Assembly (NCBI GenBank): GCA_002746335.1
Contig: NVWW01000024.1
Span: forward strand, 4,658 to 40,245
Length of the DNA: 35,588 nucleotides
Direction of reading: 5' to 3'
From: Flavobacteriales bacterium
GTDB lineage: Bacteria; Bacteroidota; Bacteroidia; Flavobacteriales_H; GCA-2746335
The position numbers and the translations under genes are program-made. The notes under the pieces were generated by a model that searched no databases, was not told the origin of the DNA, and worked only from the letters and a program-made list of their open reading frames with translations. Position 1 is the stretch's first letter, and the number at the start of each line of letters is the position of its first letter. Below are positions 6,667-15,203 of this stretch, piece after piece.

Positions 6667-9582
6667 GTGCTGCGGCATGCTGGCACCCTCAGCAACATCT
6701 TTGTTGGTGTGAACGCTGGCGCTTCCAATAGCGGTATAGGTAACACCTTTGTGGGCTTCCGTGCGGGCATCGGGCCTTCATCCGGCAGGTTCAACACGTT
6801 TACCGGCTCCGAGTGTGGGTTTAACAATAACCTCGGTGAGTCAAATACCTTTTATGGTTATCAAGCGGGCGTGCTCAATAGTAGCGGCAGCCAAAATGTA
6901 TTTATCGGGGAGAATGCTGCACGTAATACCACCGGCAGCAACAACACTTTTGCGGGATTCAGAACAGGGTTCAACAACATAAGCGGTGATGCCAACACTT
7001 TTGTGGGCAGGCAGGCGGGCGGCAGTAACGAAACCGGCAGCCGCAATACCTTTGTAGGTGCAGACGCGCAAGCCACCGGAGTCGATGAAAAAACACTAAC
7101 TAATGCCACAGCCATAGGTAACAGGGCTACGGTTAAGCAAGACAATGCGTTGGTGCTTGGCGGTATCACCGGAGAAAACAATTACACTGGTTTAACTGTA
7201 AATGTGGGCATCGGCACACCAACCCCGCAAAACCGTTTGGAAGTGGTTAAAGGCACCATCGGCCCTACTTCCAGCGGCCTGCGGCTTACGGGGCTGGCTG
7301 GGGTAACAGGCGCAACGGGCATCCTCACCAATGGTGTGCTCAGCGTTGACCCCAACGGAGATGTTGTTTTGGTAGATGGCCCAGCAGGCCCCTCTGGTCC
7401 CGCCGGTGCTGATGGAGCAGATGGTCCCACCGGTGCTGATGGAGTAGATGGTCCCACCGGCCCTGCCGGCCCCGCTGGTTCTGCCGGAGCGCCAGGCCCA
7501 ACCGGCCCAGCAGGCTCCCCGGGTAGCGCACCGCTTGCAGGAATTACCGGTTCGGTGCAATTCAACGATGGCACCAACCAGCACGCCTCCGACCCAAACA
7601 ACTTCGTATGGAACAACACTACCAAGCACCTCGGCATCGGAACTTCGTCCCCTCAGTCCAAACTCGACATATTCCATAACAATAATGAAACCCCGCCATC
7701 AGGAACCCCTTTTACTTCTTTTGGCGCTGTGCCAATAGTTTTAAGAAATACAGACAATACAGACAACAATTTTTCTTTAATTGATTTTCAAAACGGCCTC
7801 TCTGGCTCTGGTATTGCCTGTTTTGGCATTCAACATGTCAGTCATTTGAATAATGAGTCAGATTTTGTTTGGAGAACAGGGGTTGGTTGTCCTAATGAAC
7901 GAATGCGGCTCACTTCTGATGGATGGCTGGGCATCGGCACCGCCCCCACCGCCCGGTTGCATGTGAAAGGAGACAATACACCAAGCAATTTTTCAGCAAA
8001 ATTTCAAAATAATAGTGGCGCTGACTTGTTAACTGTTAGAAATGATGGAAATATTGGTATCGGAACAAGTTCCCCTAACGCTCTTTTGCAAATAAGAAAA
8101 AACCAAAATGCGCCAACTTCTATGGAAGTTGCAAATAGTAATGGTGGAGCAAACGCATTTACTCAAATACGACTTGTAACTGATAATGCAAGCGTTGCTG
8201 CGCTATTTAGAAATTCATCAACAGCAACGTCTTACGGAGGGGCGAATTCTCTAAATTTAGGAACAGTATCTTCTGATGTTCTTTCGTTACTAACAGGAAA
8301 CGTTTCAAGAGTATTTATTACGGGAACTGGAAATGTAGGTATAGCACAATCTCTTCCAGGTGCACGGCTGGAAATAAAAGGAGTAGATGCCACAAACAGT
8401 AACTTCGGATTAATAGTGAGAGATGATGTAGGCACTAATAATTTAGTTGTTAGAAATGACGGAAAGGTTGGAATTGGCACAATTACTCCTAATGAGCTTT
8501 TATCTGTCAACAATCCAAGCGGTCATGTAAGCATTCAGCTTACCGATCTGGCCAGTAATGCAACGGCAAATGACGGCTTTACACTTAGTTTGTCTAATTC
8601 ATTTGTTGTGTTCAATAATCAAGAAGGAGGGGCATTTTACTTCAACTCGGGCAATGTGGCGGCAGGACAGCCCCTTATCAATCACATGGTTATCCAGCCA
8701 AATGGCAACGTAGGTATCGGGGGATCCCCTGCCTGTAAATTAGACGTTAATGGCGGAATATGTGGTTATTCATCACTTACCCCGTCAGACCAAAGCATAA
8801 AGAAAAACATACAGGGGTTGGATAATTCACTCGAAAAAATACAGCAGCTCATTGGTATTTCTTTTGAATGGGATTTGGATACCTTGCCTGATTCATTAAT
8901 CATGGCAGGCACGCAAATCGGGTTTATTGCCCAGCAAGTGGATTCGGTGATTCCCGAAGTAGTACATGAAGATACCGCTACCGGTCTTTTGTCAGTTGAT
9001 TACAGCAGCATCATTCCTTATATGGTAGAAGCCATCAAAGAACAGCAACAAATGATAGACTCGTTGAAGCAAAGACAGGCAGCTACGGAAGTGGCTATTT
9101 TCCAATGCTGTGCAACAAGTGGCGACACAACCTCGGCCATTTGCCACAAAGGAAATACCATGTACCTTTCGGGTAACGCTTTGCAGGCGCATTTGAACCA
9201 CGGTGATAGTTTAGGGCCGTGCAGTAATGCAAGGATGAGCAACGGGAATAGTATTGGAAGTGACAGGCCATTTGGAGATGGGCAGTTTAGCAGCCAAATC
9301 GTAGAATTAAGGGATGCCAAAGCCATCATTCTAAACCAGAACGACCCCAACCCCTTTAAAGAAAACACCACTATTTCTTATTTCATCCCTGAAGAAACAG
9401 GCCAAGCCGTCATCATGTTTTATGATAATTTAGGCCGCATCGTCAAAGAAATACAAGTGGAAGATAAAGGATTTAGTGAATTAAAGGTTTATGCCTCTGA
9501 TTTGAGCAACGGCATTTACACTTATTCGCTGGTTGCTGACGGTAAGATCATTGACAGCAAGAAGATGGTGAAGTCGGAATAA
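6667..9582 (+). CDS. Main part of tail-fibre/collagen/S74 adhesin with T9SS domain
   Basis: 971 residues from a GTG; the coding frame is open back to about 6646, and this GTG is likely internal to the original gene. Order of parts: residues 10-150, left-handed-helix-like repeats (NTFVGFRAG, NVFIGENAA, NTFAGFRTG), as in YadA-like heads and phage fibres; 170-235, GIGTPTPQNRLEV strands; 239-290, collagen-like Gly-X-Y repeats; 320-700, many GIGTSSP-KLDI strands; 707-800, a peptidase S74 intramolecular chaperone (SDQSIKKNIQGL, IGFIAQQV, PYMVEAIKEQQ); 889-971, a T9SS sorting domain (LNQNDPNPF to IDSKKMVKSE). Likely a trimeric surface fibre. S74 domains usually cut themselves off; here the T9SS domain lies downstream of S74, so cleavage would detach the anchor. 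Confidence 0.88.
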   Translation: MLRHAGTLSNIFVGVNAGASNSGIGNTFVGFRAGIGPSSGRFNTFTGSECGFNNNLGESNTFYGYQAGVLNSSGSQNVFIGENAARNTTGSNNTFAGFRTGFNNISGDANTFVGRQAGGSNETGSRNTFVGADAQATGVDEKTLTNATAIGNRATVKQDNALVLGGITGENNYTGLTVNVGIGTPTPQNRLEVVKGTIGPTSSGLRLTGLAGVTGATGILTNGVLSVDPNGDVVLVDGPAGPSGPAGADGADGPTGADGVDGPTGPAGPAGSAGAPGPTGPAGSPGSAPLAGITGSVQFNDGTNQHASDPNNFVWNNTTKHLGIGTSSPQSKLDIFHNNNETPPSGTPFTSFGAVPIVLRNTDNTDNNFSLIDFQNGLSGSGIACFGIQHVSHLNNESDFVWRTGVGCPNERMRLTSDGWLGIGTAPTARLHVKGDNTPSNFSAKFQNNSGADLLTVRNDGNIGIGTSSPNALLQIRKNQNAPTSMEVANSNGGANAFTQIRLVTDNASVAALFRNSSTATSYGGANSLNLGTVSSDVLSLLTGNVSRVFITGTGNVGIAQSLPGARLEIKGVDATNSNFGLIVRDDVGTNNLVVRNDGKVGIGTITPNELLSVNNPSGHVSIQLTDLASNATANDGFTLSLSNSFVVFNNQEGGAFYFNSGNVAAGQPLINHMVIQPNGNVGIGGSPACKLDVNGGICGYSSLTPSDQSIKKNIQGLDNSLEKIQQLIGISFEWDLDTLPDSLIMAGTQIGFIAQQVDSVIPEVVHEDTATGLLSVDYSSIIPYMVEAIKEQQQMIDSLKQRQAATEVAIFQCCATSGDTTSAICHKGNTMYLSGNALQAHLNHGDSLGPCSNARMSNGNSIGSDRPFGDGQFSSQIVELRDAKAIILNQNDPNPFKENTTISYFIPEETGQAVIMFYDNLGRIVKEIQVEDKGFSELKVYASDLSNGIYTYSLVADGKIIDSKKMVKSE
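7405..7458 (+). repeat. 27-bp tandem duplication in collagen-like segment
   Basis: Two 27-bp units (7405-7431, 7432-7458), 26 of 27 identical, each encoding nine residues of the Gly-Ala-Asp-Gly type. Recent duplication; collagen-like tracts change length easily in this way. Confidence 0.85.
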
Positions 9583-10409: not shown

Positions 10410-10446
10410 GATATTTGTTTATCTAAATTCAAAATTTTATACACAA

Positions 10447-10469
10447 GTTGGCAATGGGCAGTTGGCAAT
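10447..10469. repeat. Left flank repeat of the S23 gene (two GTTGGCAAT copies)
   Basis: GTTGGCAAT at 10447-10455 and again at 10461-10469, directly abutting the stop codon of the S23-type gene. Its reverse complement, ATTGCCAAC, is the core of the array on the gene's other side, so the gene sits between inverted copies of one repeat. Confidence 0.8.
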
Positions 10470-10886
10470 TTAGCCATTGTTTTTCGTTTCATATTTTGGA
10501 CGATATTTTTCAGGATTTTCTATCATGTGGTTTAGCATTCGCCCTATTTCTTCCGACTTGTTGCGAAGTTCTCTGTTTTCTTCCTGTGAGATGTATTCGC
10601 AAGCCTCGGCAAAATCAAGTGAAATCTGTGTTTCTGTATTCTCCATATCTGCATCGCTCATTTTACTCGAAAAATGTTTTGGATATTGTCGTTTCCTATA
10701 TCCCTCTCCAATTCCTCTGCAAATTGAACGCGAAGACCTTCTAAGTTGGTCAGTCAGTGCATACTTCTCTTCTGGCGGAAACTTTTTGGTGATTTCAAAA
10801 ACCTCCATTGCCAATACAAATGCCTTTTTGTAAACAGTTAAATCCCGAAAACTACCTGCCACAATTGTTGATTTATTACTTGCCAA
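10470..10886 (-). CDS. Four-helix-bundle protein, S23 (rRNA intervening-sequence) family
   Basis: 138 residues from a TTG at 10886, or 130 from a GTG at 10862; no ATG is in frame. SFRDLTVYKKAFVLAMEVF, FPPEEKYALTDQLRRSSRSI and the ETQISLDFAEACEYIS helix are hallmarks of the S23/four-helix-bundle family, first known from 23S rRNA intervening sequences and related in fold to Avd of diversity-generating retroelements. The molecular role is unknown. The TTG start lies inside the flanking repeat (TTGGCAAGT), so the repeat may supply the start region; the GTG is the alternative. It sits between the GT2 and GNAT genes with repeats on both sides, as if inserted into their operon. Confidence 0.88.
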   Translation of the reverse strand: MASNKSTIVAGSFRDLTVYKKAFVLAMEVFEITKKFPPEEKYALTDQLRRSSRSICRGIGEGYRKRQYPKHFSSKMSDADMENTETQISLDFAEACEYISQEENRELRNKSEEIGRMLNHMIENPEKYRPKYETKNNG

Positions 10887-11169
10887 CTGCTTTTTTGCTC
10901 ATTGCAACTGCCTTTTACTGCTTGCCAACTGCTTTTTTGCTCATTGCCAACTGCCTTTTTGCTCATTGCCAACTTCCTTTTACTGCTTGCCAACTGCTTT
11001 TTCTGCTCATTGCCAACTTCCTTTTACTGCTTGCCAACTGCTTTTTGCTCATTGCAACTGCTTTTTCTGCTCATTGCCAACTGCCTTTTACTACTTGCCA
11101 ACTGCTTTTTTGCTCATTGCCAACTGCCTTTTACTACTTGCCAACTGCTTTTTTGCTCATTGCCAACTA
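10879..11169. repeat. Tandem array of about 14 units of 20-23 bp (42-bp dimers)
   Basis: Units begin CTTGCCAACTGC or ATTGCCAACTGC and alternate tails ending in TTTGCTC or TTTTACTG. Counted: six ATTGCCAAC, six CTTGCCAAC and two ATTGCAAC cores. The array fills the whole gap between the S23 gene and the GT2 gene stop at 11179. Because the units are near multiples of three, several long open frames run through it; these are artefacts. Unit variation shows it is not a recent perfect expansion. Confidence 0.9.
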
Positions 11170-11178
11170 TCTTTCCCC

Positions 11179-12093
11179 TCAAATTTTTTCTTTAACCGAA
11201 TACTGCGGGCTAGCGTTCATCATCAGGTAAAGCCGCCTTAAATAATCGCCTATCACTCCAATGCTAAATAGAATAAAGCTGGAGGAAAACATAACGCTCA
11301 CGATAAGCGCTGTAAACCCGTCCACTTCTGCTTTTAACATCATTTTTTTAATAATGAAATTAAGGCCGATTAAAAATGAAATTACCGAGAAGATAAACCC
11401 ACCCCAGGTCATCATTCGTATAGGCGTGGCTGAGTAACCGATAATAATATCGTGGCTGAAAACAAACAAGGATGGAAATGAATAACGCGATTTTTTACGC
11501 TTTCCTTTTGACCATTGCACCTCCGCGAAGGCCACATTGGTGGTGTACCAGTAAATCATCTCTTCAAGATAAACGAAGCGGGTTTCGTTTTGTGCAAGTG
11601 ATTGCGCCAAATCCTTTGTGAGTAGTCGAAAAGAAGAACCATCGCCTTTTCCGGTATTGATATTTTTTGCTCCCGCTTTCATCACTTTGCTGCCCGCTTC
11701 TCTCAGCAGCGATTTTCTTTGGCTTGAGCTGATGCCATAGACTATATCTGCATTGGTTTCTTTTTGCTTTTCAATCAATTTTGGAATTTCTTCGGGAAGA
11801 TGCTGTAGGTCATCATCCATCGAAATGACCTGGTTGCCTGTGGCGTTGGCAAAACCGCATACCGTTGCGTTGTGTTGCCCGAAATTCTTAGCCAGTCGGA
11901 TTCCGGTTACATTTTCGGGGTTTTGTTTTTTTATTTTTTTGATTGTTTCCCAACTTTGATCCTCACTTTGGTCATCGACAAAAATGGCTTCAAAAGTTTC
12001 ATTCCGGCTTTCAAAAACGGTCTTTATTCTGGAAAATAATTCTTCCAAACAAAAAGATCCATTATAAACAGGGATGACAATGGAATAGTTCAT
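11179..12093 (-). CDS. Glycosyltransferase family 2, DPM1/GtrB-like
   Basis: 304 residues from ATG 12093. N-terminal GT-A domain with SIVIPVYNG (4-12), FVDDQSEDQSW (38-48) and the metal-binding DDD at 93-95 (SMDDDLQHLP), then two C-terminal membrane helices (about 230-285). This layout fits polyprenyl-phosphate sugar transferases (dolichyl-phosphate mannose synthase, GtrB, ArnC), which load a sugar from a nucleotide onto the lipid carrier at the inner membrane face. It is 51 bp downstream of the SDR gene in a leftward run with ketosynthases and ACP, suggesting a glycolipid or O-antigen modification. Sugar donor unknown. Confidence 0.88.
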   Translation of the reverse strand: MNYSIVIPVYNGSFCLEELFSRIKTVFESRNETFEAIFVDDQSEDQSWETIKKIKKQNPENVTGIRLAKNFGQHNATVCGFANATGNQVISMDDDLQHLPEEIPKLIEKQKETNADIVYGISSSQRKSLLREAGSKVMKAGAKNINTGKGDGSSFRLLTKDLAQSLAQNETRFVYLEEMIYWYTTNVAFAEVQWSKGKRKKSRYSFPSLFVFSHDIIIGYSATPIRMMTWGGFIFSVISFLIGLNFIIKKMMLKAEVDGFTALIVSVMFSSSFILFSIGVIGDYLRRLYLMMNASPQYSVKEKI

Positions 12094-12144
12094 CAAATTT
12101 GAAATAAGAAATCAAAAATATGAAACTCGAAAGTAGGTTTTTTT

Positions 12145-12894
12145 CTACAGATGATTGATGGAAAGCCCCCCGTCCATCTGCAAATTTGCTCCGGTAATCC
12201 ATCTTGAGGCATCAGAAAGGAAAAAAGCAATGGCGCTTGCCACATCTTTCACTTCCCCATATCCGAGGGGGTATTTTTCTGCATAAGTGGCTCTTTTTTC
12301 TTCGGTCATGGCGTTCATTGTTTCCTTAAACATGGCAGTTTTCACCAGCCCGGGGCTGATACAATTCGCGCGGATTTTTTTGTGGGCATATTCTTGTGCC
12401 ACTGCCCTGCAATATGCTTCGATGGCCGCTTTTGACGAAGTGTATAAAGCGCCTCCCTGATATGGGTGTTGGCTGGAAATAGATGAGAGAAAGATCATGG
12501 AGGCCCCGGCTTTTAATTTTTTGGATTTTAAAACAGCAGAAGTGAGCAAAACAGGCGCAAACAGGTTGATATCGAACACTTCGTCAATGTGTTTTTTGCC
12601 GATGAATTTTACCGGAAACGGTTTGATGACCCCTGCGCTGTGTACAATGCCATCGAGTTCGGGCAATTCTTTTGTCAAAATTTCAATCCCTTTTTCTTCT
12701 GAAAGGTCAGCAGGCAGTATCTGGTGGCCCGTACCCGAAAGGGAATCGAATGTTTTTTTCAACCGTTCAATATCACGGCCTGTGATAAAAATACGTGCGC
12801 CAAGTTCAGAAATTAATTTTGCAGTGCCTTGGCCGATGCCTGCCGAAGCGCCCGTAATGAGAATTGTTTTATTGCTTAAGTCTATCAGGTTCAT
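12145..12894 (-). CDS. SDR-family oxidoreductase, probable 3-oxoacyl-ACP reductase
   Basis: 249 residues from ATG 12894, one base after the stop of the upstream ketosynthase gene (TGA-C-ATG); an in-frame TTG at 12906 is less likely. Rossmann motif TGASAGIG (14-21), active-site Ser138, Tyr151 and Lys155 (YTSSK), and the usual SPGLVKTAMF loop. Length is typical of classical SDR enzymes such as FabG. Lying between FabH-like and ACP genes, it most likely reduces the 3-ketoacyl-ACP they make to the 3-hydroxy form; sugar-nucleotide reduction is the alternative. Confidence 0.88.
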   Translation of the reverse strand: MNLIDLSNKTILITGASAGIGQGTAKLISELGARIFITGRDIERLKKTFDSLSGTGHQILPADLSEEKGIEILTKELPELDGIVHSAGVIKPFPVKFIGKKHIDEVFDINLFAPVLLTSAVLKSKKLKAGASMIFLSSISSQHPYQGGALYTSSKAAIEAYCRAVAQEYAHKKIRANCISPGLVKTAMFKETMNAMTEEKRATYAEKYPLGYGEVKDVASAIAFFLSDASRWITGANLQMDGGLSINHL

Positions 12895-12895
12895 G

Positions 12896-13951
12896 TCAGA
12901 TTTCAATGATTTGCGGGCAGGCGATTTTATTTGTTTTCAATGCAACCGACCCCCATGAAAGACCCACTCCGAAGCCGCAAAGTAACAACGAAAGTGGCTC
13001 TGTTTTTAACTGTGTATTGATTTCGGAAACCATAGTTAAAGGTATTGAAGCAGAACTGGTATTGCCGAAATTTTTCAACGTATAAAGTACTTTTTCAGGT
13101 TCGATTTTAAGCTTTTTTCTGATGGATTCGTTCATCAGTAGGTTGGCCTGATGAAACAAAAAATAATCATAATCATCATTTGAGGTGCTGTTGTATTCAT
13201 ACAGCTTTTTGATGTTTGGCGCCACTTCACGCAATGAAAAATTAAACACTTCCAACCCATCTAAAGCAAGGTTTCGTTTGTGCCTGACAATGCCTTTTTC
13301 AATTTCTTCTTCTTGGTATGATTCTTCTGTTACAGGATTTCTCATTCCTCCGTGTGGAATAATGATGGCTTGGTGGCCGCTGCCATCTGATTGCAGGTTA
13401 AAATCCATCTTACTGCTGTAGGTGTCGTATTCAATTGCTGTTGCCGTGCCTGCATCGCCAAACAGAGGATAAGAGCTTTTATCTTTTGGGTTTAATGATG
13501 AGGTGGATTTGTCGCCCGCAAGCAATAGGCCTTTTTTTAGCCCCGTGCTTGACATGAGGCCGGAAATGACGGAGAGGCCGTAAGCATACCCAGAGCAGCC
13601 GAGATTGACATCAAATGCCAAAGTTGTTTTTGGCAATTTGAGGCGATCTTGCAACAACACGCTGCTGGCCGGCAAAAAATAGTCAGGTGATTGAGAAACA
13701 AACACGAGGGCTTCTATATCGTTTTTGTTCCAGTTCAGTTCTTCGAGCAATTTTACAGCCGCTTCATAGCACATATCAGCGGTGGTTGTTTTTTCAGAAG
13801 CAATCCTTCTTTTTTCAATGCCAATGGTCTTTACCAACATTTTGCGCTCCGTTTCCGAAATCCAGTTATAGTCATAATTGGATTCTTCATGTTTAGGCAC
13901 GCAAGCGGCCACTCCTGAAATCCTGATGTTTTTGATGGAAAACAGCGCCAT
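12896..13951 (-). CDS. 3-oxoacyl-ACP synthase III (FabH)-like ketosynthase, copy 1
   Basis: 351 residues from ATG 13951. The Cys-His-Asn triad of KAS III is complete: C119 in NLGCSGYAYG, H267 in FHQAN, N297 in GNTSSASIP. KAS III enzymes condense an acyl-CoA with malonyl-ACP. The protein carries an extra basic/acidic segment at about 206-228. It lies three bases after the ACP gene and one base before the SDR gene, all leftward, so it forms a mini acyl-synthesis set, and it is not the housekeeping fabH, which usually neighbours plsX and rpmF. The acyl product is unknown. Confidence 0.9.
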   Translation of the reverse strand: MALFSIKNIRISGVAACVPKHEESNYDYNWISETERKMLVKTIGIEKRRIASEKTTTADMCYEAAVKLLEELNWNKNDIEALVFVSQSPDYFLPASSVLLQDRLKLPKTTLAFDVNLGCSGYAYGLSVISGLMSSTGLKKGLLLAGDKSTSSLNPKDKSSYPLFGDAGTATAIEYDTYSSKMDFNLQSDGSGHQAIIIPHGGMRNPVTEESYQEEEIEKGIVRHKRNLALDGLEVFNFSLREVAPNIKKLYEYNSTSNDDYDYFLFHQANLLMNESIRKKLKIEPEKVLYTLKNFGNTSSASIPLTMVSEINTQLKTEPLSLLLCGFGVGLSWGSVALKTNKIACPQIIEI

Positions 13952-13954
13952 GGC

Positions 13955-14185
13955 TCACCTCTTTTTTTTGATTAGGGTAAACAGGTCTGAAATGGTTTCG
14001 CAGCTTCGCAGGTCATTGCCTGTAAGCAGCACATCGTATTGAATATCTACCAGCGCGATGACGATAAGCGCATGCATGCTGCTCCATTCCGGCAGGTCGC
14101 GAAAACTCGTTTCGGGCTTGAGAGAGTTCGCTTCTACTTCTTCAAACTCCTCCTCTAATTCTTTGATGAAATTATTAATATCCAT
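13955..14185 (-). CDS. Acyl carrier protein
   Basis: 76 residues from ATG 14185, acidic, with the helical layout of ACPs. The phosphopantetheine-bearing serine is probably S36 in EWSSMHAL, where the housekeeping form would read DSL; the tryptophan version is common in ACPs dedicated to secondary or glycan pathways. It sits between the two ketosynthase genes, 3 bp from the downstream one and 13 bp from the upstream one, and should carry the growing acyl chain for both. Confidence 0.85.
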   Translation of the reverse strand: MDINNFIKELEEEFEEVEANSLKPETSFRDLPEWSSMHALIVIALVDIQYDVLLTGNDLRSCETISDLFTLIKKKR

Positions 14186-14198
14186 TTCCGGTCATAAA

Positions 14199-15203
14199 TC
14201 ATAAAGTAATTATTGTTCCTGCCCACGAATAGCCAATGCCGAAGCTCGCCAGCAGTATTTTGTCTCCTTTTTTTGCCTTCCCCTCTTTCATTGCCTCTTT
14301 GAGTGCAATAGGTATGGATGCCGATACGGTGTTTCCACAATTTTCAAGGTAAACATAGAATTTTTCTTCCGGAATTTTCATTTTTCTGCGCAACACGTTG
14401 AGCAAAAAGCCATTCGCCTGATGAAAGACAAACAAATCAATATCGCCCATTTCCATTTTTGCCTTTTGAAGTAATTCCTTTACCATTGGCAGCACTACTT
14501 TAAGTGTAAAAATAAAAATTTCCGAACCATTCATTTTCATCATTCCATGCTTCATCCCGTCTGCGTCTTTGTGCTTTTCAAGCCACTCCTTGGTGATGGG
14601 TTGCCGTGCGCCCGAGTAATGCGTCATTAAGTTTTTAGCTCCGCTGCCGTCTGTTCCGAAAACAAAATCACCGATTCCGCTTTCATTTTCCGAAGCTGAA
14701 ACAAGAGTAGCTGCGCCTCCATCACTAAAAATCATCCGCAATTCGTAATCTTCGGGGTGGACGACCTTGGTGGGCATATCGGCAGTGAGCAGCAGCACGT
14801 TTTTTGCCTGCCTGCTTTCAATGAGCGCTTTTGCCATGCTCAGGCCATAAACAAAGCCCGCGCATCCGGCCAGAGAATCCAATACGCCCGCAGTTTTCGG
14901 TAGTCCCAGCCGGTCTTGCAAAATGCAGGCAGTGGTAGGCCCTTTGTAGTCGAGCGCATCAGAAATGAAAATTAAAAAATCAATTGCTGCTTTTTCGATG
15001 GGATGCTCCTCAAAAAACTGCTCACCTGCGGCATAAGCGATGTCTGATGCGATTTCGTCAGGTGCCGAAATGTGTCTTTTTTTGATGCCCGTCATTTTGA
15101 CGATGTCATCGGGGATGAGATTTGGAAAAATGGCGCACAACTGCTCGTTGGAGAGCGTTTTTTCGGGGAGATAGTAGGATATGGCTTTGATGACTGCGCT
15201 CAA
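14199..15203 (-). CDS. 3-oxoacyl-ACP synthase III (FabH)-like ketosynthase, copy 2
   Basis: 334 residues from a TTG at 15203; no ATG is available upstream in frame, and the N-terminus SAVIKAISYYLPEKTLSNEQL fits the family. The triad is intact: C114 (LAGCAGFVYG), H261 (FHQAN), N291 (GNTVSASIP). It is clearly diverged from copy 1, so it may accept a different starter or acceptor. First gene of the leftward operon; 79 bp separate it from the divergent helicase gene, and the operon promoter must lie there. Confidence 0.9.
   Translation of the reverse strand: MSAVIKAISYYLPEKTLSNEQLCAIFPNLIPDDIVKMTGIKKRHISAPDEIASDIAYAAGEQFFEEHPIEKAAIDFLIFISDALDYKGPTTACILQDRLGLPKTAGVLDSLAGCAGFVYGLSMAKALIESRQAKNVLLLTADMPTKVVHPEDYELRMIFSDGGAATLVSASENESGIGDFVFGTDGSGAKNLMTHYSGARQPITKEWLEKHKDADGMKHGMMKMNGSEIFIFTLKVVLPMVKELLQKAKMEMGDIDLFVFHQANGFLLNVLRRKMKIPEEKFYVYLENCGNTVSASIPIALKEAMKEGKAKKGDKILLASFGIGYSWAGTIITL

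Follow-up and report, generated by a model that had tools for sequence, protein, structure and literature searches.

The window, i.e., the whole analyzed stretch of 35,588 nt from a Flavobacteriales bacterium, contains a small S23 gene located between the genes for a GT2 glycosyltransferase and a GNAT acetyltransferase. The two neighbors have the same orientation as the S23 gene, which is flanked on each side by tandem arrays of a short word, inverted relative to each other. The features are, in the direction of transcription:

11179-12096, minus strand: GT2 glycosyltransferase gene, the host gene upstream of the insertion
10445-11168, minus strand: heptad array, S23 gene and inverted heptad array between GT2 and GNAT, at a site that is empty in relatives
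10872-11168, minus strand: upstream array of 7-8-nt GGCA/AGCA units, arranged as a 21/22-nt and 43-nt higher-order tandem repeat
10470-10862, minus strand: S23 gene (PF05635/TIGR02436) for a four-helix bundle, likely GTG start, frame open to a TTG at 10886
10445-10469, minus strand: downstream arm AAGTTGGCAATGGGCAGTTGGCAAT, inverted heptad copies adjoining the S23 stop codon
9720-10409, minus strand: GNAT acetyltransferase gene, the host gene downstream of the insertion

Anatomy of the Element

For the upstream array (10872-11168), TRF reported a period of 43, 6.9 copies, 87% match and a score of 369. The 43-nt period is a higher-order repeat that has grown from the 7-8-nt units. The coding strand reads AGTTGGC AATGAGC AAAAAAGC AGTTGGC and so on, the repeated core being GGCA/AGCA. 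The downstream arm reads AGTTGGC AATGGGC AGTTGGC AAT on the plus strand, and arm pairs of 13-18 nt each were 83-100% complementary to the array. The two arms are very unequal in length, i.e., 25 nt downstream versus 297 nt upstream. The GT2 stop codon precedes the array by 10 nt, and 35 nt separate the downstream arm from the ATG of GNAT.

An earlier note on this DNA had described an array of 291 nt adjoining the start of the S23 gene; the array is present, but its length is 297 nt. The note had also placed a TTG start codon within the repeat. The TTG at 10886 indeed lies inside the repeat, but S23 homologues begin at the residue that matches the GTG at 10862 (VAGSFRDL versus MGSFRDL), and, thus, the true start is probably this GTG and lies outside the repeat.

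S23 is the only gene of the element. Profile searches revealed no enzyme, transposase or HUH/Y1 domain in the element, and neither a reverse transcriptase nor a template repeat was found inside it. In the vicinity, positions 6667-9582 of the window encode a protein of 971 aa with collagen repeats, an S74 endosialidase chaperone domain and a C-terminal sorting (Por) tail of a secretion system. The GT2-GNAT pair is adjoined by an SDR reductase gene and two KAS III genes (12145-15203), suggesting a cluster for fatty-acyl or sugar modification.

The S23 Protein

The protein scored 110.4 bits with PF05635 (cut-off 33.8) and 97.5 bits with TIGR02436 (cut-off 24) and is, thus, a member of the S23 family. 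The predicted structure was a four-helix bundle (pLDDT 70, pTM 0.63). Its best fold matches were XCC0516 (2GSC) and BT_0352 (2RLD), both of which were deposited with five chains. A weaker match was found by Foldseek to Avd (4DWL, TM 0.56-0.67, E 0.065). The bAvd model PF22296 scored just above its cut-off (40.5 versus 40), and the Avd equivalog model of NCBIfam remained far below it (32.1 bits versus 80). Most close pairs of S23 proteins had dN/dS values of 0.03-0.19, and the protein is under purifying selection.

Empty Sites

Homologues of the GNAT protein were sought in 149 genomes, and the best 11 other genomes were examined for the upstream gene. In ten of these 11 it was GT2, with 41-50% identity and without an S23 gene in between. 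The distances from the GT2 stop to the GNAT start in these ten relatives were -4, -4, -4, -1, 1, 1, 2, 2, 9 and 21 nt, in contrast to 769 nt in the window. The stretch 10445-11168 is, therefore, an insertion into an otherwise tightly packed gene pair. The earlier note had likened the S23 gene with its inverted repeats to a small mobile unit inserted between GT2 and GNAT and had proposed a search for empty sites, and both the insertion and the empty sites were verified. A target-site duplication was not detectable in 131 elements, which showed no excess over swapped flanks.

A second site was found in three states. In the family of Chryseosolibacter indicus, the gap between fadB and fadA was empty (2-6 nt), or contained an S23-less hairpin of two inverted heptad arrays (81-170 nt), or harbored S23 genes of at least two clades with differing words. 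This stop-start gap is a hot spot for S23 elements of several clades and hairpins of several words (L210-L240, L294, L304, L306, L307). Further hairpin words without S23, of the CGCAGATC and TAGTGTCTTAGTG types, were seen there at L216 and L238. In many genomes, of Bacteroidota and others, both types of word are common.

Inverted Arms and a Period of Seven or Eight Nucleotides

The source genome of the window contains 11 S23 genes, and a survey set of 89 S23 genes was compiled from 40 genomes of the same class. For each gene, the upstream flank was locally aligned to the reverse-complemented downstream flank, and a score of at least 16 was counted as inverted arms. Such arms were present at 73 of the 89 S23 genes, but only at 17 of 179 size-matched control genes (Fisher p = 5e-33). 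When the partners were swapped between loci, the number dropped to eight of 89. Clear arms were absent from the remaining 16 S23 genes. The statement of the earlier note that S23 genes with such repeats seem widespread in Bacteroidota was borne out.

Recurrence of 6-mers at a distance of 7 nt was 17.8/kb in S23 flanks versus 3.95/kb in control flanks, and additional peaks were observed at 8, 14, 16, 21 and 28 nt. Each unit combines an invariant core with variable positions, e.g., TAAG+NNN, TAGTT+NNN or TTAG+NNN. A few S23 loci had a period of 11 nt instead. Strict unit counts per arm were spread from 2 to 17, without a peak at five.

The same anatomy was found on plasmids of Nostoc, Brasilonema, Tolypothrix and others, with inverted GCAGGGG heptads as flanks. 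When a partial XCC0516 sequence was used as query, matches were obtained only on cyanobacterial plasmids and on one Gemmatirosa plasmid. Carriage of S23 by phages was also considered and discarded, as two S23 queries matched none of 50,697 phage records.

Rules of Position and Strand

The earlier note had also proposed to look for a rule of orientation, and such a rule was found. Between codirectional neighbors, the S23 gene was in sense in 70 of 74 cases of the class set and in 59 of 60 cases of the named set. At 59 sites between codirectional genes, the left arm began a median of 1 nt past the upstream stop codon, and the right arm ended a median of 6 nt ahead of the next start codon. These rules may result from the mechanism of insertion, or they may result from the survival of harmless insertions that get S23 expressed.

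The Repeat Word Follows the S23 Clade

A single terminal repeat shared by S23 genes, which the earlier note had suggested to look for, does not exist; instead, each S23 clade has a heptad word of its own. S23 pairs with at least 60% identity shared 0.23 of the array 6-mers versus 0.02 in distant pairs, exclusively in the same strand sense. For pairs with at least 55% identity, word sharing was 0.175 versus 0.029 after permutation, i.e., six times higher (p<=0.0005), again only on the same strand. For the S23 clade of the window, a scan of a genome collection yielded a set of 80 named loci from Bacteroidota, Balneolaceae, Ignavibacteria, Calditrichota, Cloacimonadota and Chlorobiota. Pairs of RRCAR..RRCA units were present in 53 of 76 upstream arms and likewise in 53 of 76 downstream arms of this clade, in contrast to 11/80 upstream and 9/80 downstream arms of other S23 clades. 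On the opposite strand, the window clade had such pairs in only 4/76 upstream and 6/76 downstream arms. The repeat word is, thus, linked to the clade of the S23 protein, on the same strand.

At least three matches to GGCA arrays were found in seven of nine genomes with a window-clade S23 versus five of 31 without (p = 0.001). Clear exceptions were the four genomes G001, G002, G013 and G016, which have many GGCA arrays without a window-clade S23. In one genome, G021, this S23 is present without an array match.

Copies at Other Sites and S23-Less Hairpins

Close copies were found at unrelated sites. The S23 proteins of L156, L158 and L146 are 86-88% identical and their flanks are not homologous, and the S23 of the window and that of L131 are 83% identical, also at unrelated sites. 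Homology between copies extended from the first heptad to 0-30 nt past the right array. At L152, L156 and L158 a stretch of 25-30 nt past the right array was alike between copies at different sites, and, therefore, the right boundary may lie beyond the array. L152, L162 and L174 were compared by their downstream flanks only, the upstream side being contig ends. Other pairs, i.e., L139/L140, L150/L157 and L193/L208, occupy the same site and look like cases of vertical inheritance. For L139/L140 and L193/L208, one site has been kept over long times, as by a resident gene, which counts against a mobile element.

Hairpins of two inverted arrays without an S23 gene were detected in 22 of 267 intergenic regions and in none of the shuffled sequences. 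As a group, they were closer to the S23 arms of their own genome than to those of other genomes (p<=0.002); individually, only six of 18 matched an S23 sampled from their own genome. The strongest case was L062, with three hairpins that carry the word of an S23 gene on the same 10-kb stretch. In the source genome of the window, contigs devoid of S23 genes also carry the GGCAGTT word, among others in hairpins of about 110 nt on C2 and about 70 nt on C58. On C58, C80 and C23 (L397, L398, L402), GGCAGTT arrays lie inside an interspersed repeat of about 150 nt that contains GCACTTTCAGTGC and occurs at least three times. The earlier note had held that repeats equally common away from S23 genes would speak against its proposal. 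Repeats away from S23 genes do exist, in the form of S23-less hairpins with the same word, which fits non-autonomous copies and does not overturn the proposal.

Discussion

The insertion, the anatomy, the period of 7/8 nt, the linkage of word and protein, the rules of strand and position, the hairpins with the same word and the selection on the protein are shown by the data. Beyond these, we infer a family of two parts, and we consider this reading probable. A small element, mobile now or formerly, would encode S23, S23-less hairpins would accompany it, and S23 would recognize its heptads. The ends of the element consist of a word of 7 or 8 nt in tandem, inverted relative to each other; one part of the word, the core, is constant and the other varies. 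S23, a four-helix bundle of the Avd fold, would recognize the core of the word of its own clade. Probably several S23 subunits would bind to successive units; relatives of S23 crystallize with five chains. The idea of multi-subunit binding was borrowed from ring-forming proteins that bind repeats, e.g., TRAP. Exactly five units per arm, as a match to a pentamer, were rejected since the counts do not peak at this number, and for the same reason a correspondence of each pentamer subunit to a single unit is no more than conjecture. Binding, to ssDNA, dsDNA or RNA, would mark the element and the hairpins with the same word for copying to new places, so that movement would depend on S23. The copies would settle in sense direction in the few nucleotides between one stop and the next start, without target duplication, and the strand chemistry would have to be borrowed from the host or from another element. 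Several observations speak against this reading: the missing catalytic domain of S23, the missing target-site duplications, the S23 copies that have kept one site over long times, the genomes in which GGCA arrays and the window-clade S23 do not occur together, the low number of hairpins that individually match an S23 of their own genome, the unit counts without a peak at five, and the 16 S23 genes without clear arms.

The element could instead act at the RNA level, like the intervening sequences (IVS) of 23S rRNA: in the transcript of the operon, a stem formed by the two arms would be cut by RNase III, S23 would be removed or expressed from the loop, and spreading would occur by horizontal transfer and recombination. 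In Coxiella burnetii, the loop of the 28-bp IVS stem carries an S23 ORF, which is preceded by tandem GACAGAT heptamers (PMC4990558), and the location of S23 in sense inside operons and the complementarity of the arms would be in accordance. Nevertheless, we regard this explanation as unlikely. A stem selected for pairing in the sense RNA found no support, since 73 arm differences were rescuable by G-U pairs in the sense transcript versus 122 of the opposite kind, i.e., the asymmetry was reversed, in a test that is weakened by related arms and AT-rich sequence. The linkage of word and clade also goes beyond what pairing alone explains, and the arms are often of unequal length, as in the window. 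Less likely still is that S23 is a resident autoregulator, which binds the heptads at its own start codon and controls its own translation or the operon, while the arrays grow by slippage and nothing itself is mobile. The array directly ahead of the start codon, the vertical inheritance over long times at fadB|fadA and in Algoriphagus, the strong purifying selection on S23 and the proposal, cited in PMC4679880, that heptamers arise by slippage would fit, but this leaves the inverted downstream array, the S23-less hairpins with the same word elsewhere, and the empty sites at conserved gene pairs together with close copies at unrelated sites unexplained.

Two further explanations are very improbable. 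The inverted ends, the insertion at empty sites and the resemblance of the S23-less copies to MITEs are reminiscent of the remnant of an ordinary cut-and-paste transposon with terminal inverted repeats; however, the element of the window has no transposase domain, target duplications were not detected in 131 elements, and the ends lack fixed terminal repeats, being composed of tandem arrays whose words are specific to the clade. A transposase gene and a target-site duplication, as in DDE insertion sequences and MITEs, are, thus, both absent. Equally improbable is that S23, as a relative of Avd, serves a trans-acting reverse transcriptase that copies the element or the hairpin RNA. The bAvd score just above the cut-off, the Foldseek match to Avd and the almost exclusive sense orientation agree with this, but the Avd model of NCBIfam is far from being reached and the element has neither a reverse transcriptase nor a template repeat. 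S23 shares the four-helix-bundle fold with Avd and bAvd of diversity-generating retroelements, and differs from these systems in exactly these points.

Among known systems, the 23S rRNA IVS has the S23 ORF, the inverted complementary ends and, immediately ahead of the ORF, the tandem heptamers in common with the element of the window. The anatomy of the Coxiella IVS is the same as that of the S23 elements, which was not generalized in PMC4990558. In contrast to the IVS, which sits in an rRNA helix, the element of the window lies between the protein genes GT2 and GNAT, and S23 elements have many loci per genome, S23-less hairpins and a word that varies with the S23 clade. The nearest parallel in organization is REP/REPIN with RAYT, in which a single genome-encoded protein is accompanied by numerous short palindromes that are non-autonomous copies and have the end sequence in common (PMC3116915, PMC2817692), just as non-autonomous hairpins carry the end sequence of the S23 element. 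Unlike REPIN/RAYT, S23 elements have no HUH/Y1 transposase, they have tandem words of 7-8 nt instead of a fixed REP, and they are inserted in sense between cotranscribed genes.

Heptanucleotide repeats have been described as GGGAATC in Xanthomonas, where inverted heptamer pairs are common, as GGGGAYT in Nostoc (PMC4692102) and as TAACTGA in Beggiatoaceae (PMC4679880). Like the S23 arrays, they are intergenic and mostly comprise few units, and some positions of the 7-nt unit are constant and others variable. These papers make no link to S23, and the repeats were left unexplained or were read as slippage, G-quadruplexes or regulatory sites (PMC4692102, PMC4679880). In a literature that excluded bioRxiv preprints and most subscription journals, no publication beyond the Coxiella paper was found that joins S23 to heptad arrays.

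Structures of S23 proteins have been solved since 2006-2007 and a function is still lacking, and, among long simple repeats, those with heptanucleotide units rank first in abundance in many bacterial genomes. The link between the two gives the repeats a testable partner, as each S23 clade predicts its own word, it offers a natural home for the odd intervening sequences of rRNA, and it points to an organization of a mobile element without known transposase. The design was seen, with differing words, at the majority of the S23 genes examined from several bacterial phyla and would explain the origin of many unexplained seven-base repeats. More tentatively, and with somewhat more doubt than trust, S23 could represent a new class of mobile element, in which a non-enzymatic, multimeric bundle would read tandem heptads with one subunit for each unit and would spread itself and its hairpins between cotranscribed genes. 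The rRNA IVS would then be a special case, and much of the excess of heptanucleotides would be the footprint of these elements.

Two further observations were made at other loci. At L053, L060 and L185 (4265-4612), S23 genes of different clades are clustered within a few kb in the same genome. At L121, in a frame upstream of S23, and at L400 on contig C63 of the source genome, heptad arrays enter open reading frames and give rise to repetitive peptides, e.g., NNEQLSIVNCQLSI; reading frames that are run through by heptad arrays are a likely source of spurious annotations.
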